Positions 11,055 through 56,800 of a stretch of DNA of 64,000 bases are shown piece after piece. Every line of letters starts with the position of its first letter. Position 1 is the stretch's first letter. Below the pieces are notes generated by a model. It saw only the letters and a list, made by a program, of their open reading frames with translations. It was not told the origin of the DNA and ran no database searches. The stretch spans positions 45,961,693 to 46,025,692 of the forward strand of contig OX439045.1 in the NCBI GenBank assembly GCA_949317995.1. Reading direction: 5' to 3'. Source of the stretch: Acholoe squamosa. Taxonomy: Eukaryota > Annelida > Polychaeta > Phyllodocida > Polynoidae. Made by a program: the position numbers and the translations under genes.

Positions 11055-11098
<44 letters not shown>

Positions 11099-20883: not shown

Positions 20884-23800
20884 GTGAGTACAAGTGCATT
20901 CCACCGAGGCCTTGAGCCGGTTCCTCCTGTACCTTACCCCTGTCTCTGAGGTGCTGCTTAGGTGTAGGCGGGCAGGGCTGGCAGTAGGGGTGCTTCTTCC
21001 TCCTACAGGGGGTTGCCTCCAGGCGTAGTGGCTGCCAACAACCTTGTCTAACATCATTGTAATTCCCATCATATTCTACACGCTCCGCCGCCAAGCGGGA
21101 ACGAGTATGGATTGGAGGAGGGAAAAAATGACTCCCCACGGCAGACATGTAAAACTCTAATCGCGTACGCCATGCCTCACCGACCCAGCACCCCCTAGAG
21201 ATTGGTTTAGACGCTGCAACAATTTGTTTACAATGCTCAAAAAGTCAATATCCACGTAGACATGAAAGGGACAACCTGCCTCTTTTCTCTGTTGTCTGTT
21301 CATAAAATAGACAGGGCATTGAAGGCCTTTAGGCTATGGCAAGCAGGAGTCTTCGGGGAGTAGTCCAGTGGAGAGGGCGGGTGGGCAGCTAGTCAATAAC
21401 CTCATATAGGGGATAATTACCCCACCAGTTATGTCACTGTGGTAATTTCCAACCCAATAATTGAATTAGTAATCTATGGTTATCTTGCTCAAATATTTAT
21501 ACTCCTGATTACCCTTGGGAAATGATGGAAAGGGTGATGGGACTGACGCGAATAGGTTCCCATTTTCAGGTATGCCTAATGTGCCCAACTCATGCATGTA
21601 TATATATGTTATGTACATAGTAGATTTCTTTGTATGTATATACCACATTGTGATATTGGGCATTGGTCTTGGTTTGTGCTAAGCATGAGATGAATGGAGA
21701 AATGGGAGGGGGAGGGGGGCTTCGACGCCAAAGCTGTATCGGCGGAGGTTGGACCTGCGTAGGATCACCGATAATTGAGCGGCGGCGACTTTGATGTGGG
21801 AGCGGGTCGGTGCTGCTACCGGAGCGGCCAGGTGGTGCCTCGGGCGTCGGAGATCTACACAAGAGGGAGGGGGTGACTTAGGGAGGTTGGGGGAGAGGCC
21901 AGTGTTGACTTAGAGTGGCCAACCAACTGCTCGACCCAGCTCTATCTAAGGCACTTCCATGCCTGAATGGCTGGACGTGCAGTCCGAGACTGCATATAAC
22001 CCCCAGGGCCTATCATCCCCAGTGGGCCAAGCGGATTGGCGATAATGGATAGTCGTGGTTGTGTTAAACCATATAGATACTGACCTCAGCCCACACGCCA
22101 ACGTCTGGGTATCGATATTTGGTCAGCTACGATAGTGATGGTGTTGGTCCTGTAGCCACAGTCCCCCACACCAACTCGGGTGAGCAGCTCTGAACTGCTC
22201 CCCCTTCTGCCGAGACCAAGGCTAATCCCATGATGTATCTCCTCCTCTAGCCAAGATCACATTCTGGAACTGCTGCCTTCAGAGCACAGCAGATATTTTT
22301 GTTTTGGAGTGAGCTAGAGAGAGGAGAAGGGAGCTAGTAAGGGGGGTCTGATCTCTCTCCTCTGGTCGTTTTTCCCCAGCTCCAAGCCCCCATTGCACAG
22401 ATAACAACTATGTGAGCTGCTCCGCCGAGCAGCTCCTCCCATGCTCTAATAATGAGGTATTGATTCTAGGGGAAGTGACGAATAAAAAGGGGCATTTCTA
22501 ATTTGGATAGGAACAGGGTTTAGACGCCGAGTCCCATGTCGTAGTATCAGTAGAATCAGCCATCGCCAGCCCCTTCGCACCTCCACTGCTTCGTATTGAC
22601 ATTGAGCGGCGTGAGTAGTACATGGAGGCGTGCCCCTTTTGTAGGCGACCTGAGACCTGGGTGACATTTAAAACAAGGTGTTCCCACTGTCAATACAAGT
22701 AAAGCTTTCAACTCACATTCCCTTCCGCTTCAACAAATAATTCAAAAACAGCTTACGTTGGGAAATAGAAAAAAAAGTCGCGCAACTTGAGATGGGAGAG
22801 GCAGAGTGATGGTTTGAATTCGGGCAGAGTCCATGAGAAGCCTCTATTAAGCGGCTAACATGGGAAAGGTGCCTGTGCTGTCCACAGGCATTGATCGTTG
22901 GATCTTGTGGCGCAAGGCTGATCGCGTATCGGTCTCTCCTGAGAGGTCTGGCCGGACCTGGACTAACAAGCCTGTAAGAGGGGTCTACAGTCGGGTGCTC
23001 AGGTCACACTGCACCAGGCTGTCAGTGTGGCTAAGGAAGAGCCAAACCCCCACCCTCTTCCACTCTTCCACCCTGATCCCACGCCAGGGAGCCCACATTA
23101 TGTGCAGAGTGGCCTAATGGTGCTCGCTAGGTCGGCGCCACGAGTCAAAGGCTCTCACGCCGGTCATATAATAACACCAGATGAAGGGGTTGGACAGAGA
23201 AAGGCGGCTTGCCGCTTGAAGGGATGCGCATGGCAGCTTCAGCATGCTTAAGGGAGAGTATGATCACGATGGTATCGTGTGTACAGTGCTGGCTCTGGGG
23301 AGCGGTTGGCGTTTTACCTCAATAGAATGGCTGTATGGATAGGGTGGTGCAGGGAGGGAAGGGGGTTAAGTAGGGAGGGTTTATAGTGGTATCTACCAGT
23401 ACAGGTAGGTTTCATCAGTCCATCATGACCTATTCCCCCCCTGTAACCCCATTACTTATATCAATGCAAACCCCAATCCACAAACCCAGCCTCCTTAAAC
23501 CCCTGATCCCACTGACGGATCTCAAGCTGCTGCGCCTCCTAACATTGTTTGGCGGTACCAATGACCCCCCCCCCCCACTTCCCACATACACGCACACTCC
23601 TCTCTCCAATCATGAGGCCTGAATCACCGGGTCTAAACACACAGTGCTCAGACTAGCGGTAAACTTTGCAAACTGAGATGAGAAAGTGCACCGGGTCACG
23701 CCCCCTTTGATCAGTGACCCTCTCTTGTTTAAGGCACATGCGCAGAACACACGTGGTGTAATACATCACGTGACCACGTCTGGAAAATGCGGTCTCGCAC

Positions 23801-26800
23801 AGAGGGAGAAATTTCCAACCACAGATGTCAGCCGGACCTCGATCCGTCTCAATTCAGGGACTGTGAGTCCTTTGATTACACTCCCTTTATGTGACATTGA
23901 TTGGGCTAAGGCGCTTGTGATAGGCAAAGTCTGATAAAGACACGAGCCATGAACTCTTTTACAGTGCCAACGGTATTAGGGCTTTCTTCTAGATCAGAGT
24001 CACTGGGGCCAGATGTTACTATAATGGTTCGAACATTGATGCAAACAATGTCCTGGTACAACAAGTAAAAACAAAACAAGAATAATATTTCTTCAACAAA
24101 ACCTCAATAGGACTAATAGTTCAAATAGATATGTAGATAGGTGAATTGAGAGTGCAAAATAAAAGATAAAACATACTTTTTGATAATTGAAAGGCGAGTG
24201 AGGAAATGTTTTCAAACATTGTTAAGATCTTATCAACAACAGGCCAGAGGGAGGTGGCACTCCAAGCACAACCTTTCTTGAAGAAAAAAAAATGTTTGAG
24301 GGATCGTGTTTCAAAGCCTTTTTACATAACACCTTTTTTCCGTCCATCATTTACTATTTCAGTCGATCCGGTCTAAATTTAAAGTGTTTATGAATTGATC
24401 AGAGGGAATCCTTGGAGAAAGTCAGTCTTCACTACTAATTAACGGACAGTGCGTCATTAGAACGCATCAAAAATAGCCTCAGTCGACAGCGAGTTGCTCA
24501 CCAGAAATAAAGATGACAGGCGGGAGTCTACCTAATTTTACCGTGACATTCGTGGTGGGCAGTGGGCAGTTAGAACGTTTAGCTCGGACATAAGACAGTT
24601 GACTATTTACACCCATTCCAATTGGCTGTGTTTTAGACGAGCTAGACAGCGAATTAAAGGTTCCCTCCTTCAGAACAAGCTATTCAGCACGAGCTGCTCA
24701 GAGGCAGTAGTGGTTTGAAATGTCAGGTCAAGTAGCCATCTTGATTTACCTGACACAACACCTGCCTTCCGCCCAGAGACGGGTCCTACGTGCCAGCAGG
24801 GAATAGATTCTGATTCATAATGAGCTGCTTCATGAGCTGTTGCGAGCTGCTCGAGGCGGATCATATTTCTGGCTAGCAGCATTCTGAGGGTAGCTTAGTG
24901 ATGGTGTGGTTTATAATAGCATACCATTACTACAGTGTTTGTGTGGTAGGTTTCTACCCCAAGGGACCACTTTCTTCCCAACCAACTTAAAGCAGTGGTA
25001 TTAGACCCCTCCCTCCCCAAACCCTAACACATGAGCTGCTCTCCAGTAACAGCTTTCGGTATGGGAGCTGCTCGATGTGGCACTACCCTCTAGCCTAGCC
25101 GACGGCCTCCACATTGCCAGACAGCGGCTCTAGCTATTTGTCCATTACCCCCTCCCCTTGCCCTCATCTTTCCTCTTGCCAAACCTCTCTCTGAGAACGG
25201 GAGCTCGCAGTCCTGGGCTGCGCCAAAGACAATTTGGCTAAAATCGCCCCAGATCTGCCCCATACCTGGGGCAGGCAGGGATAGGCCCTCCACCCAATAA
25301 CTCTGACTCAGCCAATTTTGTCCCAGTGCCATGTCCTACCTTACACACTTCCAGCTGTCATGGGAGAACCATGATACATAGATAAGGGTGGCACCAAGTA
25401 TGTGAAAGGAATCAGGCACCGTCACGCGTTTGTAGTTCATGCCTGAGAGTAGAATAAAACCTAGTTAGGTGAGCTTGTCGTCTATATACTTCTGATAGAT
25501 CACAGACTGGCGACACTTCACAATGTTCCCCCTAATTCGTACCATTACGCAGCTGTCGCTGCCTTCAAGGTGGAGGCGAACCTGAAGGCAGGCCGGGCAG
25601 GTAAAGTACGACAAATTATGCCCGTGATTAGCCTGATGCTGGGGCCCTAATTATCTTGGAGCAGATTACCCCGGGTCCGGCTCACTTGCGAAATAATCAT
25701 CATAATTAGTTTGCACAGAGGCTCAAATTAGAGGGGAAGGGAGCTGTTCAGACGCCACCACTACCTGCTCAACGGGCCTCCTTTTCGTGTCGCCCCCTAG
25801 TGGAGCAGTCGGAGTCGTTTCTCCAGCTTCCTTCTGCTCAGTCGTGGACCTTTTAGCGTGCATGCACAGTGATATGATATATGACGTCAGGGCACCACCC
25901 CACATTCAACATAATGGCAGTGAATTCATAGCCACCCTTGCAGCTTTCTTCATATTGGAGAGAGGTTGTTGTAGGGTTGGGGAGGTGGAGGGGGTGTGGT
26001 ATAAGGGTTTAGGTGGGGACCATATTCCTCTGACCCCCCCCCCCTTCCCACCTCTGCGAGTTTTCCATCAGGTTCTATGAGACTGAGGACAAGGCTGGGG
26101 TGGGGACAAAGGAGGCTAGTGAGAAGGTTGGAGGAAAGTGGACAGCAAAGTTGCTAACCCTCTTACTCAATAAGTCTTCTGGCCCTCCTCGCTATAAGGC
26201 CATATTCCTTTACACATATTGCAATTTCATTCCGCACGAGGCTGGTTGAACAGCAGTGCCCCCTGCTGCCTGCCCTGGGCTAAGCTGGCGCCGAGGCATT
26301 GCGGGGGATAACATCGGACGTGACAAATCCCAGAAATGACCCGCGCTGAGCCGGCCCCCATCTCAGCAAATGCCCTCCACCATCCCCCCTCTGAACCCCC
26401 AACCAACATCCCCTGTAAACTACCCCAACCTCCCCATCAGCCCTTCTTACTGCTAAACAGACAACCTCCAAGTGACACAGATTTATGTCTGATGCATTAT
26501 GCGTTTATGCCTAATAGATTTATTGTAATAAAAACAATTAGAGGATCCCTCCCGAAGTCTACGCCAGGCTAGCAAGGCATTCATCACTGGAGTAGGAATG
26601 GAGGAGCGAGGGAGCTGGCCTCCACCCCACCTCCTGCCTTACTCCCCCCCGACAGCCTGGGCGAGGGACACGCATGATTTGTTTAGCGTGTGCAACCAAA
26701 CTGGATTAGGGATTCGGGGCCAAAGAGCACGGGCGGGCCGACCACTCGGATCCAATCGGGCCAGAGTGGGTGTAGCGTCGGCCGGACACGTGTCTTCAGA

Positions 26801-29800
26801 ACCAGGAGGGGCTGACCAGCAACTGAACCCCCGCCCCCACTACCTTCCTGACCACAACCTGTTTCAGCCCGATGGATTGGTCAACGACAGAAAAAGAACA
26901 AAAGCCTCCTAATGGACCGCGCCTCTCCGTCTTAGACTTCATCCGCTATGCCACATACGTCTTCATTGTCCTGGTTAGGGTTGGGCAGGCTGCACGCTCA
27001 GGCCTTTCCATTGATTCCAGCCGCCTAGCAAAGAGTGCAGGCTAGGAAAGGCAGACTTATATAGGGGGTGTAGGAGCTATATGAGAAAGGCTGGAAGGGA
27101 GGGGGAGGGGATCGAGGCCAAGGGTGGCCGCGGGCATGTCATATCGGCAATGGCGTTGGGCCCATAGTCCAAGCACTAAATCCTGTGGCATTATTACGTT
27201 CGGAATATATTCACCATCCACCTGACTTATTTGTGACGTGGCCCAATGACAGGAATGGCCCCCTTGGTCTGCTGCATCAACCTCCAGTGTATGCCCTCTT
27301 TACACTGCCTTCTGGAAGGGGATCAGGAGGAAAGTAGGCAAGATCTATGACAGATGGGAGGCAAGAGGCTTTTCTAGTATGTATAAATTGCACTTGAGAC
27401 GGACCAGGCTGTTTGTAGACACTGTCCTTGAGTAGGGCAGGAGGGGCAAGCAACCAGTTTGAGTGTCAGCCAGTTTAGGAGCAATGTTTTCCTGCTGAGT
27501 CATGTGTCAAACACTGATTGACTGTCACGGCACTATTGGTCTGTTGGAGGATATACCTGATCTAAGAGAACTCATGTATGGGTCCTCTAACCAGGACCTA
27601 GTACCCCTACAGACCAACTATTGATGTACCCATCAGTCGCTCCCAACTACCTGCTCCAATGGTCCAATTTATGGCATTACTCAGCGGCTGGTTATAAGTG
27701 CCATCATAAGAGCAAGTGTCTCCCCTAACTCATAAAAAAATCCATAAAAAGCCAACACCATATCCATTTATTCTCACACCATCCCTGACTGGTCGCCAAT
27801 GTAGCTCGATGTGGTGGACATGATGCCCGTCAAAGTCAAACCAAAACTTGCCTTTGATTGAATCGATTATCAGAGAGGAAAACCAATTTGCTGTAAAGGA
27901 AATCCCTATAACAGGCAAAGCGTGGATCCCTCAGCCTAGCACTCAATGGTCGCTTGAAATTCGGCACATTTTTGGCAGCAGCGGTGCCATGGCTGAATTC
28001 TTTGATGTGGGCTGGCCTAATGGACACCCAACCCCCGCTAGCCACTTGAATGATGATAGTCCATTTTGCCATTTTGCCAGCGAGCAATCATGGGATCAAT
28101 AGTGATTGTCAGTGCTGGGGCATTACCTCTGGGGCGGTGAGCCTGTGGGCCACTGCTTGCTCTCTCATGGGGCATGTGCCCATAGGCAGGCAGCTAGTGG
28201 CCAGCACTTCTCCCTATCCCTCTGCTACAGCCTAGGGGCGGATGTTGATCTCTGGCCCCCAGGCAGTGGGGTGGTCGGGCACGTTGAGGGCGGTGAGTTA
28301 GCCGCCGACATTGTTCCTCCAGTCACGCTGGAGGGCACGGCAGGCGGAAAGCGGCCCGTCGTTGATCCATCACTGTACAGCCAGCGGGCGTGACCAGCGA
28401 GGTGCAGCCGTGCGTGGCCAGCGCCCACAATAAACCAGGGCATGGCGCCCGGTACCCGCCACCATGCAGCCGCCGATCCCATCAGGCCACAAAACAAGCG
28501 CCTTTCCCACCCACACCCAACCGGAACATATTATAAATACCGTCCTCTCGTATGCGTGACACAAAGTGCATGCATTCCAAATCCATACTTTCTGAGTTCT
28601 CACAATAACACATGAGCCCGGCTCCTTGCTTTTGACCCTGAAAAAGTACTATTATCTCTTCTGTGTCTATTTTTATTTGATAAAATTTCAATCCAATTTA
28701 TTCTGACAAGAAAAAAAAAGGTCAAATGGCATACGCTGTTTTAATCAGTCTGTTTCCCACGGTTTTAAAGAATCAAAACATCACCAACCGTTCGCTTGGC
28801 CGGAAATATCCCAGCAGGGATAGCTGCGACTAATTTGGTTGCAGAGAAAAAAAAATAGTGGAAACTGATGCAGGGATTAAAATAGTTCAGACAGGGCGAC
28901 TGCTGTGGCGTCGATGGGGTCGAGTTACAGATTACAAAAATGAAACACAATTTTAATATTCTCCAGGTGGTGTTTTTCCCCAAGACCTCTTCATAAAAGG
29001 CCAAGGGGGGATGGGCAGTCAGTCTTCATGAGATCTCAAAAAGAGGGTTTCCAATCACAGATATCATTATGATAAGGGAGCATCATTAACTTTTTCCCTC
29101 ATCAATATTCTCACAGAATATTGATACCACCCAAACATACCAATACACAATATTGAATATCTGCGCTTTATACAAAAACACCGTTTTAATGAAGAAGCTC
29201 CAGGAGAGCAGCTTGTGGTGTTTGAATTACCTCCATGTGAGCTGCTCGTGATGGAGATGCATGCAGTCAATGACACGGACCTGTGACTGAAAGCAGCTCG
29301 AGCACGTTTCTTATAATTAGAAGCCACCTGCTCCACTGTTCCCTGCACCCTCTCTGCTCACCGAGCAGGTCAGTTGTTAACATGGGGGTGGGGGAGCAGC
29401 TCTGAGGGAGTAGCTCAGAAGGAGGGATGTAGCGGCTGTTGTCCAACTAACTGTAATGGTGTTTTGAATTGCTGAGTGTGTACACTAGCCATGTATCTAC
29501 ACGGCAGGTAACACGTCGGTAAATTACTCTCGCACATGGGTGCTTCACATTAGGGTTTCCTTCTAACACACTGTCATTCCTTCTCCACTATTCTGATCAA
29601 TACCTGCACGTGCTTCCCAGGAACCTTCTCACACTTCTTACAGTCAATACAGCCGCAACATCTCTCTGTGTGGATTTTTTTTTTCAGTTGTACATGTATT
29701 TATTTTAGGACTTCTTGTCGCGACCATAGACCTCGACAATATCTAATATCTTGTGTGATCGATTTCAATCTCCGGTTAGAAGTGGCCCTCCAATACACAC

Positions 29801-32800
29801 AGATTGATTTTTATTTTCCCCAGGAGGGCTCCCTGCTCGCCACATCTCCCCCAGGACGCGTCACATGCCTGAGTGACTCCCATTAAACACAATGTCTGCT
29901 TCCAGGTGCCTTGAGCCTGTCCTACCGACAACGCTAATATCCCAACCCACTCTAGCATTGCAGGCATACACAGCTATTGGCAGAGGTCTGACCCTCTTCC
30001 AAACAGCTCCTCAAAGCCTTGAGGAAGAAATGTGTTTTATGTAACAGAACCTTTTGGAGATTTCCTTCTTCTCAGCCTAGTCATTTTGAGTCGGCTCAGC
30101 TGAATCCGGTTGGTGGTGCCACTGGGGTTTTGAAAATCTGTGTCGTGAGACATGCGCAGCTTGACTGCGGACAGCTGTTGCCCGCCACCCTCCCAACCCC
30201 TTGACTGGAGAGCAAGTTCAGCTGCACCCCCTCAACCCCTCCCAACTCCATCCCTTCCTCCACCTAACATGTTTCCCGTCTGCTTGCTTTGCTTGGTTCC
30301 TCAAAAAAAGGGGACTAAGAAGGCTTGTTGACAATGTTGTCTGACAAGCCTTCTGTCGCAATAAAATCGACCAATTTGTCACTGACCCTTTCCCGGCCTG
30401 CCAGAGGGACAGAAATCGGAAGGCTTCTCTTGTCAAGTAAGGCTGGCGCAGACTCTGGAGAGGACTTGGGCATTGGCCACATGGAGAAGAGGTGGTACCC
30501 AAAGGTACCAAATCAGTAAGTCATTTTCGCCAATATTATAGCAGTCCTTGGCCTTCTATAAGCCGTCAGCCATTACCTCCACTTAGGGCCACTGCTGCAC
30601 CTTTTAACCCCGTTGAGGGTGGGGAGGACGAGAGCGGCAAGGGGCGTGGTGCTTGGACTTTTGGTGCTACTCTTGGCAAGAGGGTGGGGCACCGGAACTG
30701 AGGGGCCGGAAACGGCGCCTTAGATTTGTGCAGTAGTGCGAATCACTGCGACGAGCCTTGGGGCTTCAATTCTTGAGGATGTAGAAGAGGGTGGGCCTCT
30801 ATGAGAAAGCTCGGACTGGTAATCACGACAGCCAAGCCTTTTGATAGTGGTCACTTCGTATTCTGGTAGCCCTTTGGTCTCGTCTAATTGCGAGGTCAGG
30901 GGAAGAGAGTATAGCGAACGCCCTCGACTTGTGACAGCGGCACTGCGGTGGCCGTTCTCCCATTTTGGTCCATTTTCTACCCGGTGGACCAGTAAATCAG
31001 TTCCGATTGCTTGCTGGCATGGAAGAGACCATCGGAGTGGCCACACTCAGAAGTTGTCGAGTTGGAATCACGACTCAACAGTTGAGTGACCCCTAGGAGA
31101 CCCTCTCATCTCTAGCCATAAGTAATACGTCAGAGCAATACCCGCACCCGACTTGCCTCAGCCTACATGATCCCCCAGTGCTAGTATCCATAGCTGGCTC
31201 TCAGTGACAGAGAGACCAAAGAAAAGGGGATGCTCGGGACTTACACTGAGCCGCTCAGAGTAGCTCAGTTAAAAAACACTGTTTGATATGAGTCCGTCGG
31301 GAGGAAGCTCTTTGGCATGAATTAGATTTAAATTTGCATTTCTTTACGAGACAGCCATCAGCTACACGCAAGTCACAGGACCGACATTCATTGGCTGTGT
31401 GCTAAGGCCATTTCAGTGATGGGTTTCTGCCTGACTAGGGCCGGGTAGGGAATCACAGGAGGTATGGGGGACCGTAATCATGTTAGCCGACGCTGCCCAT
31501 AAAAAAATACACACACGTTATGACCGATAGAAGACTTTCATGCAATTTAAGTGCTTACGTTATTCCCAGTGACAAAGATCATTTAATTTCCTCAATGCAT
31601 TCCTCTAGTCTGCTTTTATTGGTGGCCCACGGATGAAACCACTGGAAAATACTGTAAGCGTGTCTAAGTACACTTTGGGGATGGGCCTCACTGGCATACA
31701 CAATGATGTCGGTGCTTGTCCATAAAATCAGCCTAGGTGGCTGCCGTTATAACTGCCTTGTCATGTCGTGGTAAAACATGCAGGCGCACCTGTCATCTGT
31801 TACGTAAGGACAAAACAATAAAACTCTAACTCACCTAATGACACAAGGCAGTTTAATCTGATCGTCCAGATGGCAACTCCAGTACATAAAACAGCCACAA
31901 AGTCAGCAAAACCTTTTACCTATGCATATTATAGAGGCTGAGATAAAACACTACCTGAGGCTGAATTTAGCAGGTAACAACAGGGTTATTCACAGCTCTT
32001 GGATGCCATAATTGACCTCCCTGCTCTGGTTACCTCTAGTGACGTCACACTAGGGAATTATTGTGCTCATCAGATAAGGCAGAAAAAAACCATAGAAATG
32101 CAACCATATCCAATAGCATCCCCTAACGCAAAATGCATTATGGTTAAGCTGCTTCAAAGGGTTCCGTCTGCCTCCTGGAAGCCAGTGATTCATTTAGCGG
32201 AGTAGCTGGAGGATAGAGACCCGATGCATATACACCCTGCTGCACTGGAGGGAAAACACCAATCTGTCTATATACATAATCTGGTGTGGCTTTTTCTCAG
32301 GAAGAGAAGTCAGTGGGGGTTGCAGTGGCAGCAGCGCCCTCCGTCTGCCTTGTGGGGATTTTCTGTCTACCTAGGTAAGTGGACAGATGGATCGAACAAA
32401 GAAGGAATTCCCCAGTGAGGGAGGAAAGAGGTGGAGATGGTGGGGGTTCTTCCATAAAGACTTGCTGCTAAATAAGAAAAGCTGTGAAGAGATTCTCAGT
32501 GGATCTGGAAATCCTGTAAGTAGTTTACCCGGCCCGACCTTTACCTGCCTGACGTAATGAGGGTCTATTTTTGGATCGGGAAAAGCTCATGTCATTTCAA
32601 CCTGGAGTGACTCACGTAAAAATCAGATACAAGAGTCTTCACCACAGGGCCAGCAAGCTGTTAATGGAACTGTAGTGGAAATATTCCGAACCTTTGGATT
32701 ACCAAGAACATCACTGTTTTTCCCTACTTGGCTTAGGCGGGACAAAATAATGCAGATAGAAAAAGTGGAACAACCTGAGAGCCTTCCTCACTATTTCTGC

Positions 32801-35800
32801 TGTCATCTGCCTTCAAGGCATGACGGCTTATAGTATTGGATTATCACAGACGTCAGTCAGGCGAATGGATTTGTGAATCTTCCTCTGGAGGATTTCTCTT
32901 GGAAATGTCACTGAGGCTAACATTATAAGTACTATTCTTCATGCATCCCTGTCACATCATGGCTTCGCCTCTCCCCTTTTTCATATCTCTAGAACATATA
33001 TCGAACCTGAGTCTCCATCGATTCGGAACTAACAAGCTCGGAAATTTATAGCGGGCGAGCACCCTCGTTTGAACCATGGGGAGAGGGAAAAAGCATCTTA
33101 TTGAATGGATTCAATTGGTTTCATATCTGCAGTGGGTAATAAGCTCCTTGCCAGAGAGGAACAAAAAAAGATGCTTCAAAAATCAAAGATTGCCTAATCT
33201 CGCAAGAATTGCTACTCCTCCTTTCTTGTGGATGGACTGGCATGGGCTAACCAAGCTAGCTGCACTCTTCGGTTTTCTGCCATTGTAGTATCGGAATCTG
33301 GGGTTTGCTGGGGCTCGGTTTCAATTTGTCACTGAGTGTTGAGCTGAATACTGCAGGCATGGCCTATTCAATTATTGGGATTCGTTGGTCGCATTTCACC
33401 TTGTCAATACTAGTGTGCGATGCTCCTCCCCTATGACAGCATCTACCGAAACACTCACACCCACAAGCATCATTTCTCTCACCCTCACCCCAGCCCAGTA
33501 CTTTCCCTCATCCCTCCACCCACTCCCCTACGTCCTCTTAAAGCCACCACTCTTCCACTCCCAACCCTCACCGGGCCTCAAGGCGCTCTGGCTCCACTCA
33601 CAATCTCACTTTACAAACTGGTGTGCGATTCAGAGGAGCCTTCCCATTGTGGCCCGAGCCTGAAATATGAAATGGAGAGATCGGCCTCAGCCAAAGGGGC
33701 GGCGGGTTCTCCGACATTGGTTGCTATGAAAGACAGATCCTCAGACTTCAACGTGATACATCCTTGTCACAGCAGACCTGTCAGCCTACTGATCCTCAAT
33801 AATATCCTTTAATATCAGGCCTCTGGGCGTATGCAGCTATAGCTTTTCCTGTCAATTAATCCAATATGCATGGGTAGATGTACATATACATCTGTGTTAT
33901 TTTTTCTCTTTAGACTGGGTGTGTCCTTACAAAGACACAAGACCCACCCAGCCTTAAGGTAAGGCACATTTGAGAAAGGGGTAGCCCTAGTGGTTGCTCT
34001 TATTGGCATCAGTGCTGGGGGAACTAGCATTATACAAAGTGCTACCTCCATTCCCAGCCCAGATTAAACCGGCCAGCCCACCCTCGCAAGCACGGCCCCA
34101 GCGTCAGTTATAGTGTCAATTTACAATGAATGCCCTGCTTTGCAGTCACCCTGGAGGACACTGGCATAATGTCCACTAAGGCTTGGCATTGTGGAATGGG
34201 CCTTGTCGCCTCACACCTCATGGGCTATCCTATTGGTGGCTCGTCTTTTCGGGATAGAGGTGGGAGGGGACATAGAAGGAGGGATGGTAGTTGACAGCAT
34301 GCTCGCCCTATGCCATGGGACGGCAGGAAACTTCAGGAAATTAAGTGGCGCCTGGAGGAGACAGCTCCTCCAGACCAGAACATATTACCTAATTCTGGCC
34401 TGTCAGTCTAGAGGTAAAACAGCAGGGCCTAGCTGGGTCCCTCGGCCTCCTTCTCTCTATTCATCAGAGGCCCTGGTTGGGAATGAAGGACTATGGTTCT
34501 GCCCATAATAGTGAAGCTCAATCAGTAGGAACCATCAGCATCAGCGCCTTCCCTACCAGCTCAGCCTGAGTCAAATAATGGTATTGACACAGTATTAAGG
34601 CGTGTCCGTCCATAACCCAGCCTGCCACTCCTTCACACGACTCCTCCATCACCAATTACACAATATTTAACTGAGCTGAATGACTTTTAACGTGGGGGCC
34701 TAGTTTTGAGAGGGTTTCTTCCTGAGAGCAGAAAGAGAACAGTTAATGATGTTGACTGGAAACTACACGTGTTTGATTTCAAAGTTTGACTTGGGTTATG
34801 TTTTTTTCAAGAGTGCTTTCTTTAAAATCAAAAGCCTTGGTACTCGAACGCGGTCCAGAGAAGAGCACCAAGATCTGGCTGACAAAAATTGGATTGTAAA
34901 TTCCCCTTCTGTGTCCCTTTTGTGAGGAGATTGAAGAGGGAGGACAAACAGCCCTGGAGAGAAAACCATCACGTTGCCTGACGGACAGAGGACGCCACAG
35001 ATGCAAAGTACATGGCACCGATTGCAGGCGACTTGACTACTATTCGTGCAGACGCATCTACTTGAAACAATCCCAATTTTCCACTTTATTGTCTATGCAT
35101 TCACCCTTCTCAGCTATTCTCCTGCAATGACTTATTCAGTGGCACGTCCTCTTGGACAAACTCGGTGAAATCTAGCGAGAAGCGGAGGGGAGAGTGTGGA
35201 TAATGAGAAAACAAGTCACAGGGAGATCGAATACGTATTGAGGCATTGTGAGATTCTTCAATTATGCAGTATATATACTCGGCTTGCTGTATTCTGACAC
35301 TGTAGGGGACGTGAAGGGCAAAAGGCACTATCGCTTTAGGCTAGAGAAGGGTAATCTGTGATATCGGCTGACCTTAGTGGGTTAGCTTATACTCAGTATC
35401 ACGGCTCTATCACACTGATTCTATGACTTCTACAAATATACAAAAATACCCATTTTCCAAATAGGTACTACACAGCAAATAACCAAACAGGTCAGAATGC
35501 ACTGAGTACACTTGACTGCTGCCTAGGCCAACAGGCAATGACTTAACCTTAGCTTGCCCTAGGAGGAATGGAGGTCGCCACCTCTGTCACCTTTGTCTGT
35601 GGTCACCACACTAGCAAACTGACACCATTGAGGCTGCCTGCTAAAAGGCTACTGTCTGATACTTGAGACATGGACACTGAGGCAACCCCACCCTTCTTCC
35701 CTTTGTAACCCTTGCCCCTGTAGCGAAATTGATCCCCCGTACGAAGGTATTGTCGGGGTATCCCCCGTCTGGCCACATAACAAATTGGGAGCGCGCACCC

Positions 35801-44800: not shown

Positions 44801-47800
44801 TTAGGAGCAGCTCTAGAATCTATTTTAGGTAGCACCCCATCAATGAACATGTGGCATCTGATTATCATCACAGTGATCCCTTTCAAGTGTCGCGCACTGA
44901 TCTTGGGTTTACATTTAACACCCAAAGTACTTGGATGGTGAGTGGGTGTACACACAGAGTTATGAACAATGCACCCAAAGACACCCTTTAGGTGCTTCTC
45001 TGGAGTGTGCATGCACAGGGCATTTAGCTACTCTGAACAGGAAGTGGCGCTAGGATGAGGCGGTGCCAGTCGAGCTCTACTTTGCCTATGATTGCTCCGC
45101 CCCCCTCCCCAAAACACCAGACAGGGACAAGAAAGGCATGTGCTCTTACAAAATGGGGATTCTGTGTCGTCGGCATGGCACAGGAAACGCAGATTTCCCT
45201 CAAAAGGCCGCTGCCTAGTGGGACAGTTTTGATTACAGAGGCCAGATCGAGGTGGGTCCCGCCTTCCTGGGTAATGAGTGCGCCTGTGCTGACCTGTCGG
45301 CACAGGAGGCTAACGCACATGCGTGGTTTAGGCCCCCAGGCGGGCGTGAATTACCACCGCAAACAGATCGACCAAGTTATGAGCACAATCCCCCGCCCTC
45401 ATCGCCTTCCCTTCCCTCTGCATACTTCTCTATACCCAATCCCTCCACCTCCCAACCCTCCTACATCCACCTCCTGCAGGCACTACCATATTTCAGTTGC
45501 CACTCGTGGGGTCGCGTGCAGAGGGGCCATTGGCGGCACAGCTTGGGAAGCCCTTGGGGGGCCAGGCCCTGCCGGCTTAGCGATTCACTTGGCTTCCTCC
45601 AAGTCACTTGCTGGCTTCTCTGCACCTGACCCCCTCTCCTTCTTTTCCCCCATCCTCCTACTCACTCCACACCAACTTCACTTCTACATGCCTGCCTCAG
45701 GCAGCCAAATACATGCATACTTACCCCCGCAGGCCAGATGAGTAATGAAAGGATCATGACTCTAATATATTTTGATTGTGTTCGATAATTAGATTTCACG
45801 CTCACGGAAGGGCCAAGGGTTTCCCCATTCTATGATCGACCACTTGCAAGGAGCCCCTGCCGCCTTGTACTAAATCGAGGTGACAGCCCTCGAGAAAAGC
45901 TTTTGCTACACACACAGGGCATAGGGGCAGGGAGGGAGTTGCTGACCCATGAAAATTGAAGCAGCTTTACATAAATTGCTTGGCCCCAGCGACGCTGGCA
46001 TCATCAATGGTACAGCGTTTATTTTGCAAATACTTTTCGCATACACAAATATATGTATCCATATGGAGTGATGGGTGAGGCAAAAACTGGAAGGCATTGC
46101 CTATTCAATCTATGCTAGTGCTCCACCATCACATAAACCCACGTTGTTTGAATAAATACATGGTTTATGTATCATAAGGAGAAATAGCTCTGTCTGGTTG
46201 TTACACTGTGAAGTCATGAGAAAAAGGAGCAGTGTGGCCGTGCGGCGCCGCGATCACTAGGCTAGTAATAGAGACCAGGATTAACTCCCTGTAAGATTAA
46301 ATCTGCCCATCTTGGTCGACTCCATTACCAGGGGAGGCCTTGGCGTCCCATTACTGGGCTCGTAAATCAATATCTGTTGTCCTGATGCCACAGGATCTCT
46401 CTGTCATTCTATGATCAAAATACGCGAGCTATGTAAACCCCGACGCCGAGCCTGACGGACGGCAGGGGATGACACACAGTCTCCCCTACTGACAACCCCA
46501 CGTGCTCCGTCATCGTGGTGGGCTGCATGGGCTGAACTAGTGTTAGCCTCCTACCTAGTCACCCATCACCCATCCCCCACCAGCGACGCCATCATCAGCC
46601 TTGTTGCTGAGTGGCACCAGTGACGCCAAAATGCCAGAAGATGGGGCAGAATAAACAAGAAAAAAGAGGGGCCTCATGACCGATGTGCTTATCACGTCCC
46701 CAGGTCGTATTCAGAGGGCAGCAGAAGGCAGTAAGAGAAATTAAGCCTGAGAAGACTGCAACTGTGCAAAGTAACCTAGCCCCTCCCTTGCCTCCACCCT
46801 TTCCTGCTTCTCTCGACCGTGCCAAGTAACTTCAAGACTGATATCCATTAAACGCTTTTAACTCGGTGCATCTAATGACTCCAATAATTACCTTTCGCTA
46901 TCCAGTTTTGATTTTTCCATGGGCAGCCCATCGCGCTGGCTCGATTATCTCAAAAATATCGTTCGCCAAAGGTGATCAGTCATGGACATAATTAGTGCTG
47001 CGCCCATAATTGATTCCAAGACTCAGAGGGGCAGAGGGAGCACATAATCACACTAAATATGGCTATGTCTGAGTTGCTCACTTCTTGGGGCATGGTGCCA
47101 TTTTAAGATAGAGGGAGGGCACCAGGGCCTGCAATCACCATCTGATCAAGTTGTGTCCTTTTTGCAAAGGGTACCTCCCTCGGAGGAAGCCCCAGGTAGT
47201 CTGGCGCATTCCCAGTAATTATTTTGATAGAAGGGAAAAGGTGCATTAGGAAAGGCGGCATCTGGCTTAAAGAAGCCCGAAGGACCATCATGAAGAGTGA
47301 TTCGATTTATTTGCTGACGTTTTCCATGTCTTAAGGTTTGCTTATAGGTGGGATTCCTACCTTCGTGTAACAATCACTTTGCTTCTCTCCTCCCCCACTT
47401 CCTTACAAGAACTCATATACAGTCCATACATATAGAGCGAAACGGGCAAATGATAGGAAGATTGTGGCCAAATGGATGGCGCCTGTAGATAATGGCTTTA
47501 TTTACATTTCAAAGCAAAATAAAACATCCAGTTAGTGCCTTTGGCGGACAGACATTAGATGTGCACGTTCCATTTGGCGCAATTCAATAAGCCGTCTCCC
47601 ACTGTGTATCCGGACAATAGCGTGGCATGCAGGCCCTCATTTAGCCCGGCTGGCAGTCGCGAAGAGGCAATGTTTATTCCTTCGTTATTCGGCACTAAAG
47701 TCGTTGCAGCCAAGTCTGATCGCTTTCACACGAGTAATTGAATTTGGGAGGCAATCATTGACGTTAATATCCCCCGGGGAGTATCACCTGGACGTTGGGA

Positions 47801-50800
47801 TTGGACCGCCCCCTGCCATGACCTTCCTGCCCTTCTCCTCCTCTTTTCCCATCTACTGCAGTCAGTTTCACCGATACTATCTGCAACCATAAGGTAGTGG
47901 CCGCATCGCATCTAGGAGGTCCTTATAAGGGATATCAATTATGGCTCCACGCATATACCTGACAGAAGGCCGACATCAAAGCCTAAGGTTTAGACTCTAA
48001 GAGGGCCTAAAGAACGGCGGGCAGTGTCCTCCCAATTCAGGCAGTCCTCAGTTATCTAATTACATGAAAGCACCCTTCTGGTCTAGTCGTTAGCACGTGA
48101 ACGGAAAGACCGTCTGTGCTGGAAGGGGAGTGGGAAGGAGGGTATCAGTGTGGGTGGAAAGGGATTGGGGGAAGAGGTGCGTCAGAATAGTATGGCAAGT
48201 CTCACTTTTTAGTTGGCTCTTTTTGCTTGCCGAGTCTCACGCGATGTTACCATTTACCTGCATGTTCCATTCATCATCTCAAAACCTGAGCTGGAAGGTA
48301 TCTGCACCCCTTCTCTCTCCTTTTTCATTATCTTCATTGGGCTGTAATCTAATCGGCTACAAACTTTCAGGTTTTTTTCTAGAAAAGGTTCAGACGTTGA
48401 TTGATATGACTATTAAGTTTAACTGATTTCCTTCCGTTACCAGAGCAGCAGGAAAGACCCAGAATTGCATGTTTGCAAAGGCCCTCAATCGGATACAAGT
48501 CGAGTTGAAATCCTAGACAGCCTTTCAAATGAGCTACGCTGATTATTAATAAAGACACCCAAAGCCATCAATAATTTCCCCCCAGTAGGGAATATCACTT
48601 TATCCTTGGAGGATATTAACATGCGTTTACATAATTAATAGAAAATACACACCGGACCCTCTGCTTATTCTTTCAATGACAACAGGGAAATCCTACCGGG
48701 ATAAAGAGCACTGCCTTCATTAGTTAGTCTTTTGTGCTTGGTCTGTGTGAGCACAGAGGCCTTTTGCCTTTGAGGATGTGTATAAAAGAAATTGTAAGGT
48801 TGGGAATCCTGTCAGTAGCATGAACATTAGATAGAAAGGGTGCGTGCAAGCCAACACGTGCCCGGATGTAAACTGAAGCATGGATATCGGGTAGACTTGG
48901 TGTGAGCAACGTGAGGTCTAGGGATAGTCGGGATGCCCCGCCTGGCTTCCGGTGGAACTTCTATTTTATGACTTCCGCCTGCCAGCCTAAACAGCCCCCA
49001 TCAAAAGAGGTTGCGATTCCCATCGAGCCTTGATTTACCCGTCTAAGCAGGTCTTTTACATTCAAACAAATGCCCCTCTTTCCAATCTAGCTGTCACCTT
49101 CAGTCCCCGCCACATTAACCTAACCGACTTTAAGTCTGGATTAATGGCATCCGAAGCCTATTTATTTCCCAGGGAGAAGAGCTCTGGGCAAGATACCTGT
49201 GGCGTGGAAGCCAAAGACCATGGTTCAGTTTCCAAAATGTTGCCAAAGTATCATTTTGATCAGAGCATCACACCTGGGTGCCTTTAACTGCTGCACACAG
49301 GAAATAAGTTCTTCCGCTGTGCATTTACCATGCCAGCCAGCAAATCAGTGAGCCGCCGGCCTGGCACAATTTTTCGGCAGGGGGTCCACCATCCACTCAT
49401 ATTAGTGTGACACGGGGCCGAGCAGTATGGCTCAAGGGCAAATAATGCAGCCTATATTGGTCTAGTGACGTTGGGGTGCTCTCTGCCTCTCCCTCTGATC
49501 TCCCATCAGATCAAGGTCCCTTATAGGTAAAAACAGGTGATGAATTTTCTGGACATAGCCGGCTGGCATATGGCTCTCCTCATGGCTTAGGGCAGCCGTG
49601 GGGAGATAATTAAGGATGGCTGTTTACTGCAGGATCTAGCAGCCTAGGGGACTTCCAGGCTCTATTGGATAGTAGCAGAAAGTAAGGCCCTAAAACACCA
49701 AACCTCTAGGCTAGTGGTTACAGGATATGTGCACAGTTGGCCATGCTGATACTTACAGGCCTTCAGTTGTGTGCCTTTGAAGTGTAATTAATAAACAGGG
49801 TTAGGCGGAGTTGGATCCAATTTGACCTACTAGAGGTCAAAGGATCAAAGGACTGACCAGGGTGACCGGATCACTCCAAGTTGGACTTCGCTAATGGCTC
49901 CAATTAAAAGCACTCCTCCGGATACATTCCGTTACTGACTGGGACTGCTTGTCTGAGAGTAGAACACGCAAAGAAGCAATAAAAGGACGTTGGTGATATT
50001 AGTAGCTCTGCTCCATGTCCATTTGGCAGATAACTCGTTGAGTACAGTTTACAGCCTAGGCCACTAGCTTCACTTACTACTACCCAGGAAGGGAGGAACG
50101 GAAGGTAACCCTTACTGAAAGGACACAGTATATCTGAACTTATAGAAGAGACAACCCAAAACACTGCCCTAATCTGAGAGGCACAAGTACACCATTGGAA
50201 TTCCTTGTCCCCCATGGGGCCTGCGCTTGTTGAAGTTTGTGAATAATGGCTGCTATTGTGTGTAACTATAAGGGAGTGGCCGGGTGCACTCTGAGGCCGC
50301 CTCTAGCACAGTTGCTTTATGATGCTTTATATTTATCAGGTGCCCAGAATCCTGTCCTCTATTCTCATAAATAGTCTGTGGCGCCTGTCGTGGATGGATT
50401 GTTTGCTCCGTTTTGTGGCTCTGGCACACTTATCCATGAGCAGCTCCATCAGTCGCGAGTAGCTCATGACAAGGCTGGGCAACATAGTAGTAAAGATCCC
50501 AATCAACCATCCCAGCTCTATCCTCCCTAAATTTGCAGCCCTATCTGAAAAAGCCCTTCCCACCCTTAGCACACATATACTGAGTTCCTTCCTACTCACT
50601 CCACTCCACTGTAAGCTTCATAACAAGGTTTTGACCAGCTCGGAGCAGCTAAAACTGGGCCTCCCTCGCTCAAACAGATTTATGTTGCCGAGCAGTGTAA
50701 CTACCCAGAGAAAAAAATATTAATCACCTGGGTACATCCCCTGGTCAATGACATTGGGAGCAGAGGGTCGAAGATGCTCAGGGTAAAGATGACTGACGAG

Positions 50801-53800
50801 CCTGAGCAGCTCATGAGGGCGTGCCTGCTCCCGGCCCTGACCCTCACTGTGACCAAAGGTCAGCGAGCACATATGGTTCTATCTTGGCTATCCAGAGGAG
50901 GGAAAAAACGGATCATGAGTCTGGTCGGTCTCTATAAAGCGAGTCTCACAATAAGGAATAGGATTAGGCGCAGCACAATAACAAGCTTTAGAATGCTATA
51001 ATAAACCAGGGAGGCGACCTCAAGTAAGGATGGCGGACAGTGGGGGTTCTGGTCGCCTGCAAATATTGATAATAGCAATCTGTGGAACGATGGGCAGGGG
51101 GGAGATGGTCATGCAGCCGTAATAATTGCGTTGTTCTAAATTAATTTTGCTCCCATCGAGGAACAGGGTTGGGAAGATATGGGTGGGGAAGGTAGGACTT
51201 TAGGAGACATGGGTTTTCAAGGCCTAAAGGGACATTGCAGGCATGCTAAATGTCACATTAATGCACACCGTCAACGGGGCAGGGCCATTGACCAGTAGTA
51301 GATGAAAGGTTGGGCATGGGTGGATAGACAGCCCCTGCCTGAGGGCTGGGAGTCTACATATAGAATAGTGGATAGTGGGTCTGACATTGGTTGGCCAGCC
51401 AGTCGTTATTAGTGCCTATTATGGACTGGCCACAATGTGCGCGGGAAGCTGCCGTAATAATCATCGTTACCCGCCTCCATGCCTGCTTCCTGCTGCCTAG
51501 CAGTCGCTCTGTAAAAGCTCATTGTTGCGCTCATAGCCATGATTCGCTTCCACCTTAGTAATTAGGAAGTAAGTCCTTTCTCTAGTGAGAAGCTCTTGTT
51601 GATGTTCTACATTGCGAGCTGCTCCAGCCTCCTCAGCAATAGCCAAAGTCGAGTAACCTTCCTCATGTGCCGTTCTCTTCTTTTCTCTTCCACAGCTCTC
51701 CGTGAATACTGCCCCTGGGAGTCTTTCAAGGCTTCCTGCAAGCCTGACGAGGTCATCGTCATGGAGACGGCACGCTATGGACGTATGCGTCTAGGACGTT
51801 GTGTTAAGAACGACCTTGGCTATGTTGGCTGCTTCACTGATGTCCTGGATCTGCTGGATGCCCGCTGCTCTGGCAAGAATCAGTGTGAATTCCGCCTGCC
51901 TGACCCTGAACTGGACAAACTGCAGCCCTGTCTGGAGGACCTCAAGTCCTACCTCGAGGCCAGCTACCGCTGTGTAAAAGGTAAGTTAAGTTGAAGAAAT
52001 CATGAATCGTTATACTTTAGATAAACTTGCATACATCAATCAAAGAATCATGGTCTGTTAATCTACATCTATCATTGCTTTCTTTTTCTTTATCTTAAAT
52101 GGTGCCATAAACGCTAACTTTGTGGGATGGGGGCCGTCGGAAATGGACAATAAAAGTAAACATAGAGGCATTAGGGGAATGGGTCTAGTATTCAGATCAG
52201 GCAATGGTATGGGTGGGGCGGGGTTGCAGGGGTGGATTTGGGGCGGCGGCTATCTGGGAAGCTTTCTCCATGACTGCTTCAGCACTAGTGTCAAATTCAA
52301 GAAAGGCACATCTGAGGCGGGCTTGGTACGTGATGATCTGGCGCTACTTGATAACGTCGGCGTGATTATTTATAAGGACATAGCCGGCGGATCACAGAAG
52401 AGAACCTCAGTGCACGCCGCAGAACGCTCCTATTTCATAATACAATTGGGGCCAGCGCAGCATTTGACCCTTGCATGGAGGACTGGGGATGGGGATGGGG
52501 CTCACTCGCCCCTCAAGCCGGCCGTGGTCGGCGATAGCTTCCGCTAGCGGCCCGCTTTAGATTGCCTTGCTATAAAGGCCATCCGAACCAATCTGATATT
52601 TTTATCCCATAACCCACGGAGACTATTGCTGGATATTAAAAGAGGAGAACAATCCTAGGCGGCTACCCATGGCCTGCCCAGCCACCACGAGTGGCATCTT
52701 TGCCCATATCCACCCACAACATCCACCCCTCAGCCTCGTTTCACAAGCAGTGGTAGTTATTAAACTCAATCTAAAACAGAAGCAATGCAGCACCCCCTCC
52801 CTAAACCCTCCTCCCACTAACTCACCCACCCACACCAACCCTAATCCAGATTCTCAGTGATGTGGAACCCCCTGTGGGAGGATGCCTACACGCCCCTCAT
52901 TAACTTCTCTTTTATACTAACTGTAAACTCTCATGGTGAGGTGCTGGCGTGCAGTTGCTCCTGCATAGAGGCCAAAGCAGGGGACTCCCCAACTTCAACC
53001 ACCAACCCCCAAATTTGCCTCCTGACCTCGAGTGGCTAGGCGGCAGTGCTGGTAAAGCCTGTTTACATTAATGTCCTCTTTGGACAGGACGATGTCTGCT
53101 CCCATCACACGGGCTTTGGGAGGAATGTCTGAGTCCTAGCCCACTTTGAAGTGCTGGCAGACAGGGGTGGTTATTTGGTCCATATGGCGCTTCTCTCATA
53201 ATTATGCTAAGGTCTCACAGACCTCTGCTGTCTTTAGATCCATGTGCCATCTAAGGACATGGTCACTAGAGGTCTCCACCTGTTTGAGGCACCCTCCCCT
53301 GTAAACTAGGCTAGTGAGTGCATATCTCTCAAATGTAAAAAGGAGTAAAACCTTGAGGATAGGATTAAGTATGGAATCCTATTACAGGGTTGCCTATTTA
53401 AAGGATTACTCAGCATCCAATGCATATACTATGGGATAAAGAGGTATTTACATGCACAGACTGGAGTAGTGGTTTTTCTATAGACATGGATCACCTAGGT
53501 CAATAATGGGGAGGGGTTGATCTAATCAATACACCTTGTCCACCTGAGTGTATCAAAGCTAGCTCTCTGTACACGAGTATGCCAGACTCCACGGCAAGGC
53601 TGCAGTAACGGGTCTTCAGGTAACATGGCCTTCCCCAATGGTAGAGTGTAATAGGGCAGGTAAGACGCCTTTCAATTTGATGGTGCCATTGCATGCAGAG
53701 GCCCGTTTCTTAGAGAGTACCTGCCAAACGTGCGGAAATCGAAAGTAGGTGTATTTGTTCGCCTAGTGCTTTAAACCTACACTCCACCACAGTTAAACCT

Positions 53801-56800
53801 GAGCTAGTTTTGTTCTAATGCCAAGGAATGCCTGTGGAGCTCCTGCTTCCCGTGTAACACACCGCCCCTGGAGCGGTATTGGTACTGGCACCACTTCTAG
53901 AGACTGCTTTAAAACACGAGGAACTCTTATTTCAAAAGAGATCTGAAACTGAGTAGCTGGAAATTTAATTACATGCAATGTTCGAGGCTTCTTGAATTCC
54001 CAGTGGGAAATTGTGTTAGTATGTCCAGCAGTTTTCTTGACAAGGTCTTGGAGCTCAGCTGGAGGCCATTGCCCCAAGTTATAGCAGGTCCGATCCATGG
54101 GGCGACTCTGAGAGGGGTGGAGGCAGTATAGAGGAAGGGGTATCTGGATAGCTGTGCCTTGAGGCCAACCGCTAAGACATGGTGCTCCCTCCCCACCTGA
54201 GTGGACACACCTAATTGAAGGAGGCCACGCTCGGAGAAGGTCACTGTCGGTGACTCGAGGGTCGGTGCCCGGGGGTCAACTTCATTTGGCAGCCCGTGTC
54301 GCGGCCGCTGAGCAATATCAGGCATCATGGACGGCTCCTGCGGGTCGATCTGGCCGTGCTGAACAGGCTCTGGGAGCTACTCGCCCCAGAGATGAGCCGC
54401 TGACATGGAGAGGGAATAGGGGGATAGGAGGAAGGAGCGAGCAGATTGAGATACCCCACACACGTCTCAGCCCCCGCCCATCTACCTGCAGGTCTACAAC
54501 CTACCTACCTACCTCCCCAAGCCCGCCCTTCTCATCACCGGCCAAGGGAAGATAATTAAATGGGCAGGGGTAAAGTCAGAAGCCAACGTGATCGGGGGGA
54601 ACAGATGAGCTGCTTCTGACGAGGAGGCTGGGTACTCGTCTTACGATGAGCAGATAATAAAAGCCCCAGGATAAGCTCTTTCATGAGCTGCTCTCCCCTT
54701 GGTCGTGACGTCATGTGGACCCATATGCCGCCCTCTGGAGGTGCTCTCAACTGAGCTGGTGAATGTCATTTAGATAGCTTTGAGATTTTCATAACAGAAC
54801 ACCCGTGATACGAGGCAAGCGACACTGCAGCATAATGAATCTAGCTGAATGGTTTCTCCTTTCACTGCCAGAGAAGGTCAGGGGAAATGGGCAGATCAGG
54901 ACCGGAGCCTGAGCGAAGAGGGATTATGCTCAGGACAAGGCAATGTATTCTGTGAATAATAGTGAGTGAGTGAGTAATAGATGTTTAACGCCATTTCAAC
55001 AGCTAAGTTCATATTCATGGCGAGAACGACATTACACAATTTCAGAGGAATGTGTCAGTGCCCGCGCATATGTGCACCACACACATCCTGAGGGGATAGG
55101 AAAAACTAGAAGTAGACTCTTTTAAGTGGGCTAGGGAAGCCCTCTGTAAATAATAACCAGTGTGGATAACTTGTAGGTTTTACTATGACTGCTTCTATAA
55201 ATAAAGCACACAGGGAGACAATATTGAACTGGCACTGACGACAGCTCCTACCTTGTCCAACATCTAAGGTATCAGTCCTTTAGAGGAAGGAGGGAGACAA
55301 GACTACCTGTCGGTTTGCTTGGCCGAAATCAGCCCCATCCCTTTACGGGCAAAGACGGCCTATTGATCTAATTACAATCTCATCCACCAGCATCAAACTT
55401 CGTTTCCAACTTTTAGGGAGCCTCATTTAGCTTAGTACTAACTGAGTGGGATTGAAAATAGACAACAGCTCACGGTCGCCTTCCACTATAAAAGGTCCAT
55501 GGTCATTGAAAGGCTGGGCAGAACGAGTTAAGCCCGTGGCCTTTGATCTCTGATTACAGAGAAAGAATACTCTAGTATGCCACACCTTGGTCGACGTGGA
55601 TAGATGAGAAGGTGAAGCTCGGTAGACCATGTCCTTGTCTAGGTGAGCTGCTCTAATTGTCTTAGACATGGACAATGGAACTGATCACATCACAATAGTA
55701 GACTGTATACACAAGTACTTGCTAATAACTCGTAAAGATATTTATAGGTGAGGTGTCTCTTTTTGCAAAGAGAAAGAAGGGGATTAATGTCATCTGCTTG
55801 ACCGTAGTCATTTGTTTCTAAAGGCTGAGGCGACAACTCTTGCTTAAGGCAAAACTTCATTAGAGGAATATATATAACAGAAGCTAGGGCATGTGCCACA
55901 CAGCTGCCGGAGGCGGAATGCCTAGGCTTCTAAGGCACCGGGGACTTTTACATGATTAATTTCATCACAGATGCATACAAACTAAATGAACACGCGACCA
56001 ATCTGAATCTACAAGCCCGCCAACGACGCTCATTGTGCAAACCTTGAGCTAGATTGTATGTATGCCCAGAATTAAATTGACCGAGCTGCTCTGAGCGACT
56101 CTATTTATGTCTATGGTACTTGGTCTATTCCCAAGCCCTTGGGGAGATGGGGGAGTTGGGCAACTGGGTGAGGCAGGGCTTGACGTTGAAGGATGAGCAC
56201 CAGTTGAGACTGACCTTCCATCTCCTGGAGGTGGCCAACTGAAATCTTTGCTAGGGACACATGGATTTACAAGTCATGCCACCTGGGCGCTCTGCCAACA
56301 AGTCCCAGTGGGACGGCTACAATCAGTAAGGCTTGCTTTCTGAGAATAGCTTTCTGAGAGGAGGATGTTAGCTAAAGATGGCCATGTCTGTGGTTTTATA
56401 GATGACACATCTACAGCAGCCAGTTGGCTTCATATGACGTGGGAGTGCCCACCTCCTTCTTGTTATGGTGGCGGTGACTGCGCCAACAGAGTCGGAGCCG
56501 TGAGAGGGTGTGGGTGGGAGACTGGGATGTGGCACCTGCGGCTGGCGGCACAATACTTACCTGGCCAGGCAATGGTGCCAATAGACATCACTGTCAGGTG
56601 AGGAACAAAGCACATCCCATGCCTCTCACTAATGGATATGAGCAGCTTAATTAAGGGTCAGACCGTGTGCAGTCTGTGCTTGCCTTTACTAGCTGATCAC
56701 TTCAATGGCGGCTGGAAACATGTCTGAGGGTGTTAGGGGATGGGTGTAGGGAGGAGGGGCTGACTTGTGATCATGTATCCTCAGTGGCATACTCCCCTTA

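Follow-up and report, generated by a model that had tools for sequence, protein, structure and literature searches.

The odd palindrome GAGCWGCTC is strongly concentrated in the introns of a cell-surface lectin gene of the polynoid worm Acholoe squamosa, within a 64-kb stretch of DNA (contig OX439045.1, here C11, positions 45961693-46025692) that we refer to as the window and number from its first base. The two halves of the word are separated by one base pair only, its sequence information has sharp edges, and it forms clusters on the scale of enhancers, recurs in a second dense stretch on contig C1, occurs in tight pairs, and stands on both sides of the TATA box in retroelements of the long terminal repeat (LTR) type. 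Taken together, these properties point to recognition by a DNA-binding protein, which is probably dimeric. We propose, with moderate confidence and on the basis of sequence, that GAGCWGCTC is the putative site of such a dimer, that its intronic clusters would be enhancers, and that LTR-type promoters may exploit the same protein.

Results

A 9-bp word with sharp limits

The window contains 21 perfect copies of GAGCWGCTC, 10 in the form GAGCAGCTC and 11 in the form GAGCTGCTC, the first of which starts at 22182 and the last of which ends at 56091. A search of all 64 kb found no perfect copy outside these limits, and there is none in the four coding exons of the lectin gene. An earlier note on this DNA had reported the same 21 copies in the introns of one gene, their absence from 1-20.4 kb, 57-64 kb and the exons, and a chance expectation of about 0.3, all of which our recount bears out: 200 dinucleotide shuffles of the 20.4-57 kb region gave a mean of 0.38 copies with a maximum of 2, and a second-order Markov model (Markov-2) predicts 0.51. 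Among all 9-mers with at least six copies in this region, GAGCWGCTC has the highest z-score (22.8). Copies with one mismatch are more numerous than the roughly 16 that had been estimated by eye: the window has 32, of which 26 fall within the 20.4-57 kb region.

The spacing between the half-sites is strict. GAGC and GCTC are separated by a single base 22 times in the window (once with C at the centre), and no other gap from 0 to 30 is found more than 5 times; palindromes with other gaps were considered and rejected, being absent or at background level both in the window domain and in the C1 stretch described below. Across 41 perfect copies (21 from the window, 17 from C1, and three from other sampled stretches), sequence information stops sharply at 9 bp. 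Pairwise identity of the flanks is 25.1%, the same as at random positions (25.1%), and the best-matching pair of flanks agrees at 21/40 bases, compared to 19/40 for random positions. Because the edge of the word is sharp and the flanks are unrelated, the copies in the window do not represent a decayed repeat family, an explanation that we also reject on account of the low internal repetition of the gene and its near lack of similarity to the other loci fetched. Alignment of the copies as one decayed repeat family, which the earlier note had named as a refutation, is not seen inside the domain, and the common flanks that would define a transposon or repeat family are not found in the window domain.

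A feature missed by that note is that the copies coincide with a GC-rich domain of very low internal repetition, which we place at 20400..57000 (no strand) from guanine-cytosine (GC) content, repeat content, and similarity. In 4-kb steps, GC is 0.38-0.41 before the domain, 0.47-0.51 over 20-56 kb, and 0.44 and then 0.40 after it. The domain contains just four two-copy repeats of at least 25 bases, and 0.5% of it resembles other fetched loci, versus 8.0% and 13.6% for the window flanks, in a comparison that covered about 0.3 Mb of the genome.

Weak copies and local clustering

Many of the perfect copies, to none of which a strand is assigned, have close neighbors. The GAGCAGCTC form is found at 22182..22190 (with a one-mismatch copy 10 bp on, at 22192), 22427..22435, 29394..29402 (one-mismatch copy 14 bp on), 36891..36899, 42459..42467, 42802..42810 (next copy 35 bp on, with a one-mismatch copy between), 42837..42845, 44805..44813, 50438..50446 (one-mismatch copy 19 bp on), and 50804..50812. 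The GAGCTGCTC form is found at 22414..22422 (next copy 13 bp on), 24691..24699, 24844..24852, 25033..25041 (next copy 32 bp on), 25065..25073, 29239..29247, 38657..38665 (one-mismatch copy 22 bp before), 51616..51624, 54685..54693, 55645..55653, and 56083..56091. When perfect and one-mismatch copies in the window domain are combined (47 sites), 14 neighbor gaps are 40 bp or less, while 2.4 are expected.

Not all mismatches are equally enriched. In the one-mismatch copies of the window and C1 domains, a clear excess is seen for only three changes of the half-site, namely G to A at position 1 (8 vs 1.6 expected), G to A at position 3 (5 vs 1.1), and C to T at position 4 (11 vs 0.9). G to T at position 1 may also be overrepresented (4 vs 1.3), no enrichment is seen where the A at position 2 is altered (1 vs 4.1), and there is no clear enrichment of the outer G to C change (3 vs 1.9). 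This spectrum may reflect either the tolerance of a binder or decay by transitions. Using the perfect copies together with the three enriched kinds (62 sites over both domains), sites at distances of 9-40 bp are 8.6 times as frequent as under uniform placement, and those at 41-400 bp 2.3-2.8 times, with no excess beyond. Moreover, the strongest enrichment of 6-mers within 75 bp of the sites is that of partial copies of the word. Weak copies thus accompany strong ones at the scale of enhancers, as in homotypic clusters of binding sites. The earlier note had suggested a regulatory or chromatin-domain code; since the clustering excess ends at about 400 bp, ordinary homotypic clusters fit better than a chromatin-domain code.

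A second word, GGTTGGGA/TCCCAACC, is found 11 times within 20400-57000 of the window, where 1.2 copies are expected. It was rejected as a further member of the same system, having 11 copies in the window domain and 0 in the C1 stretch.

Genome-wide excess and a second dense stretch

The assembly comprises 1.481 Gb in 18 contigs of 54-127 Mb and contains 71,505 copies of GAGCWGCTC, corresponding to a mean of 48 per Mb. This is about 10 times the Markov-2 expectation of 7185 (6388-9339 under orders 1-4) and 5.5 times the count of the composition-matched word GTGCWGCAC (12,926). The word is not confined to this one gene. Nor is it equally dense throughout the genome, as the 21 copies in the 36.6 kb of the window domain amount to 574 per Mb. 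Among 20 arbitrarily placed 10-kb stretches, 16 have no copy, three have one, and one, at C1:70.00 Mb, has five; three of the four sampled stretches with GC above 0.445 are without a copy.

The stretch with five copies, which was chosen for its density, gained 12 more when it was extended by 40 kb, giving a second dense stretch at C1:69.99-70.03 Mb with 17 copies within 33 kb; its edges, as used in the tests reported here, were set post hoc. GAGCWGCTC again ranks near the top of all 9-mers (z 21.4, second behind poly-C), and again only the one-base gap stands out, with 17 occurrences compared to at most 3 at any of the other gaps between 0 and 24. None of the 17 copies on C1 and none of the 21 in the window falls inside a region of similarity to other fetched loci. 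As a whole, 6.4% of the C1 stretch resembles such loci, which is near the 8.0% of one window flank. No coding exon was recognized in it by codon usage.

Tight pairs

The genome has 976 places where two copies of GAGCWGCTC are separated by 1-8 bp, versus 106 for GTGCWGCAC; most of the 50 places listed for this control belong to a few tandem arrays, and three of the 50 are on C1. The first 50 listed of the 976 extend only to C1:54.7 Mb, and the gaps from 1 to 8 are represented 11, 11, 9, 7, 4, 2, 2, and 4 times among them. In the 45 of these pairs whose letters could be read there are 36 distinct strings, and 23 of the 24 with gaps of 3-8 are distinct. Pairs with a gap of exactly 4 number 84; the 50 that were listed are spread over C1-C8, with 40 distinct strings among them and 10 that repeat another listed string. 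Four gap-4 loci sampled from these 50 (L075-L078, on C2, C4, C5, and C7) each have one more copy, perfect or with one mismatch, no more than about 42 bp away. In two of the four, 33-34 bases that span the pair itself match other loci, and in L077 a repeat lies next to the pair.

LTR-type elements and other repeats

The word is also found at the promoters of retroelements. Loci L001 and L004 form a 410-base direct repeat of 97% identity, in which the L004 copy is cut at the TATA box, and an open frame that lies between the repeats has a match to gag aspartyl protease that falls short of the family cut-off (E 1.3e-05). Loci L029, L030, and L031 are related copies, 72-93% alike to L001/L004 or to each other. 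In these LTR-type copies, one word lies upstream and one downstream of the TATA box, as would be expected of an LTR promoter element. The same layout is found in L032, which has no similarity to the L001-related copies. Genome-wide, the word-TATA-word pattern matches at 1724 places on the plus strand and 1596 on the minus strand, many of which overlap between strands, and the matches listed include several different spacers. Since the presence of the pair of words was the reason for choosing L029, L031, and L032, these loci say nothing about whether the word is retained. Finally, a 19-bp minisatellite at C1:7.18 Mb (7.177-7.180 Mb) has a unit that starts with GAGCTGCTC. The view of the earlier note that the word does not belong to a transposon family consequently holds inside the lectin gene, where flank identity is at the random level, but not elsewhere, where LTR-type elements and the minisatellite hold many copies.

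The host gene and its surroundings

The host gene of the 21 copies is an animal cell-surface lectin gene on the plus strand, modeled as four coding exons that join in frame. A TATAAG sequence at about 20350 lies upstream of exon 1, the coding part of which (20820..20883, plus strand) appears by eye to encode a signal peptide. Intron 1 (20884..51695, plus strand), defined by its splice ends and frame, contains 18 perfect copies. Exon 2 (51696..51980, plus strand) encodes a SUEL lectin domain (PF02140, E 4.7e-09), and its matches in the PDB are latrophilin-like and L-rhamnose-binding lectin chains. The splice model continues with intron 2 (51981..57380, plus strand), which contains the other 3 perfect copies, and exon 3 (57381..57779, plus strand), which is CUB-like by eye with no Pfam hit. 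Intron 3 contains 0 copies. Exon 4 (58003..58844, plus strand) ends in the stop codon and appears by eye to encode a CCP-like region, a transmembrane segment, and a tail, again with no Pfam hit. No RNA families or tRNAs were detected in the window.

Outside the domain, the window has a 32-bp tandem unit at 60187-60502 (9.9 copies, 98% matching), which contains the long palindrome ACATCAATGCATTGATGT, and minisatellites of 46, 80, and 70 bp at 1973-2751 and 10374-11068 in the AT-rich flank. The genome has at least 128 homeodomain matches. Ten of these, all on the plus strand, fall within 1.4 Mb at C14:35.17-36.53 Mb, which is probably a large Hox cluster.

Discussion

According to our proposal, GAGCWGCTC is the putative recognition site of a sequence-specific protein, most likely a dimer that would contact two GAGC half-sites separated by one base pair. 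In the lectin-gene introns and at other places, copies grouped within 10-40 bp, and also over distances of up to about 400 bp, would constitute homotypic clusters that act as enhancers, and LTR-type retroelements would recruit the same protein through the sites around their TATA box. Protein binding, the enhancer role of the clusters, and the genes that they serve are what we infer from the letters of the genome. Should the proposal be correct, candidate enhancer clusters in this genome could be found by plain text search, the binder could be obtained with one short oligonucleotide, and the sharing of one factor between host and retroelements would become testable. More tentatively, this 9-bp iterated palindrome may be a general regulatory or chromatin-domain word with an undescribed reader, possibly lineage-specific and array-forming, around which LTR core promoters are built as well. 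In that case, host enhancers and selfish DNA would have one dedicated factor in common.

Several observations weigh against the dimer-site proposal. Much of the genome-wide excess consists of repeats: in a sample from C1:0-3 Mb, for which 40 further stretches were fetched from listed sites (L001-L004, L030, and L033 already held some, and a near-duplicate at 223.6 kb was omitted), 27 of the 40 sites lie within stretches common to other fetched loci, and the 12 stretches that resemble no other fetched locus are roughly as many as chance density would give over these 3 Mb at the chromosome end. Retention of the word in LTR-type elements is mixed. Four copies with a TATA box came from the list of single words: both words are kept in L030 and L064, and one of the two carries two mismatches in L001 and in L060. 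Conservation in these elements also extends to other blocks. Helical phasing of the sites is weak (p ~0.02 at 10.5 bp, with five periods tried). In C1:0-55 Mb, homeobox genes have no clear link to the tight pairs, one of nine homeodomain matches being 19 kb from a pair and the others at least 90 kb. The two words of a pair tend to have the same central base, as seen in 36 of the 45 readable pairs with gaps of 1-8 (binomial p 7e-5) and in 43 of the 50 listed gap-4 pairs (binomial p 2e-7), two sets that overlap and in which the rule was noticed after the fact. The earlier note had seen in the word the form that a symmetric dimer would bind. The 9-bp odd palindrome agrees with this, but the same-centre rule is not explained by a plain symmetric dimer; it may reflect arrays, an asymmetric partner, or old duplications.

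Duplication is also the basis of a rival explanation, in which short tandem duplications or minisatellite seeds raise the local copy number without selection for binding. The same-centre bias, the 19-bp minisatellite built on the word, and the listed gap-4 pairs that repeat another string speak for it, as does the pair in L033, where the spacer matches the following bases at 5/6 positions. However, in 13 same-centre pairs the spacers match the following bases at 29% and the preceding bases at 30%, which is near chance. As spacers are unlike the neighboring bases, recent duplication is not the general cause of same-centre pairs, and recent tandem duplication was rejected as their source, L033 being the only exception. 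In addition, most listed pairs are distinct in sequence (40 of 50 with gap 4, and 23 of 24 readable with gaps 3-8), and in the domains most neighboring copies are separated by hundreds to thousands of bases and have flanks that are unrelated. We consider a purely mutational origin quite improbable. A role in chromatin architecture, where a reader of the word would turn the whole gene body into one insulated or open domain instead of acting at separate enhancers, strikes us as unlikely, if slightly less so. The copies do extend over about 34 kb of one gene, ending where GC drops, the second dense stretch is about 33 kb long, and tight pairs cluster on C1 (8 of 49 neighbor gaps are 50 kb or less, vs 2.2 expected), but within the domains the clustering excess extends to about 400 bp only, and the empty GC-rich stretches indicate that GC-rich DNA is insufficient.

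The many genome copies that reside in LTR-type elements, with a TATA box flanked by the word, could suggest that the intronic copies are remains of such promoters, which brought the word into the gene. This origin is already disfavored and very unlikely, as none of the domain copies (0/21 and 0/17) shows similarity to other fetched loci, about 0.3 Mb of the genome with LTR-type copies included, and TATA-like words are found within 45 bp of 0/21 sites in the window and 2/17 on C1, compared to 7.5% and 11.1% of random positions. A TATA association of the intronic copies was accordingly rejected. Least probable of all is a signal at the RNA level, such as splicing or RNA-protein binding. Every copy in the window is indeed intronic, but the two centres are about equally frequent on the sense strand (10 A and 11 T), and the word is also placed around the TATA boxes of LTR-type elements. 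The putative dimer site with enhancer clusters thus remains our preferred reading.

Comparison with known systems

No description of GAGCWGCTC as a motif turned up in the literature that was searched for its exact spellings as whole words, and for longer or degenerate strings the titles of the matches listed include no animal motif and one bovine virus paper. The E-box of basic helix-loop-helix (bHLH) factors, CAGCTG, has the letters AGCTG in common with the word, but it is an even palindrome, GAGCWGCTC contains no CANNTG, and the outer G-to-C change that would lead towards it is the one noted above as not clearly enriched. The half-site of the p53 family, RRRC-WW-GYYY, is bound by dimers and occurs in repeated units. 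GAGC fits RRRC and GCTC fits GYYY, but the centre here is one base rather than two, and GAGCWWGCTC has 0 copies in both dense domains.

The closest kinds of system are homotypic clusters of transcription-factor sites and, by analogy, HIP1 of cyanobacteria. In homotypic clusters, which act as enhancers, many copies of one short word lie within a few hundred bases. The likeness consists in the over-representation of the word against a matched background and in the occurrence of degenerate beside perfect copies of one short word in large introns; the differences are the strict 9-bp word, its density over a whole 36-kb domain, and the same-centre tight pairs. HIP1 is spread fairly evenly through its genome, whereas GAGCWGCTC is not, with 16 of the 20 sampled stretches empty and one holding 5 of the 8 copies. 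The abstract of one paper describes HIP1 as a highly iterated palindrome and points to orphan DNA methyltransferases (PMC4390886). As far as this source goes, the two have in common that a short palindrome is strongly over-represented genome-wide; they differ in that HIP1, GCGATCGC, is an even palindrome of bacteria, while GAGCWGCTC is an odd palindrome that forms clusters in an animal genome and also stands at LTR-type promoters.

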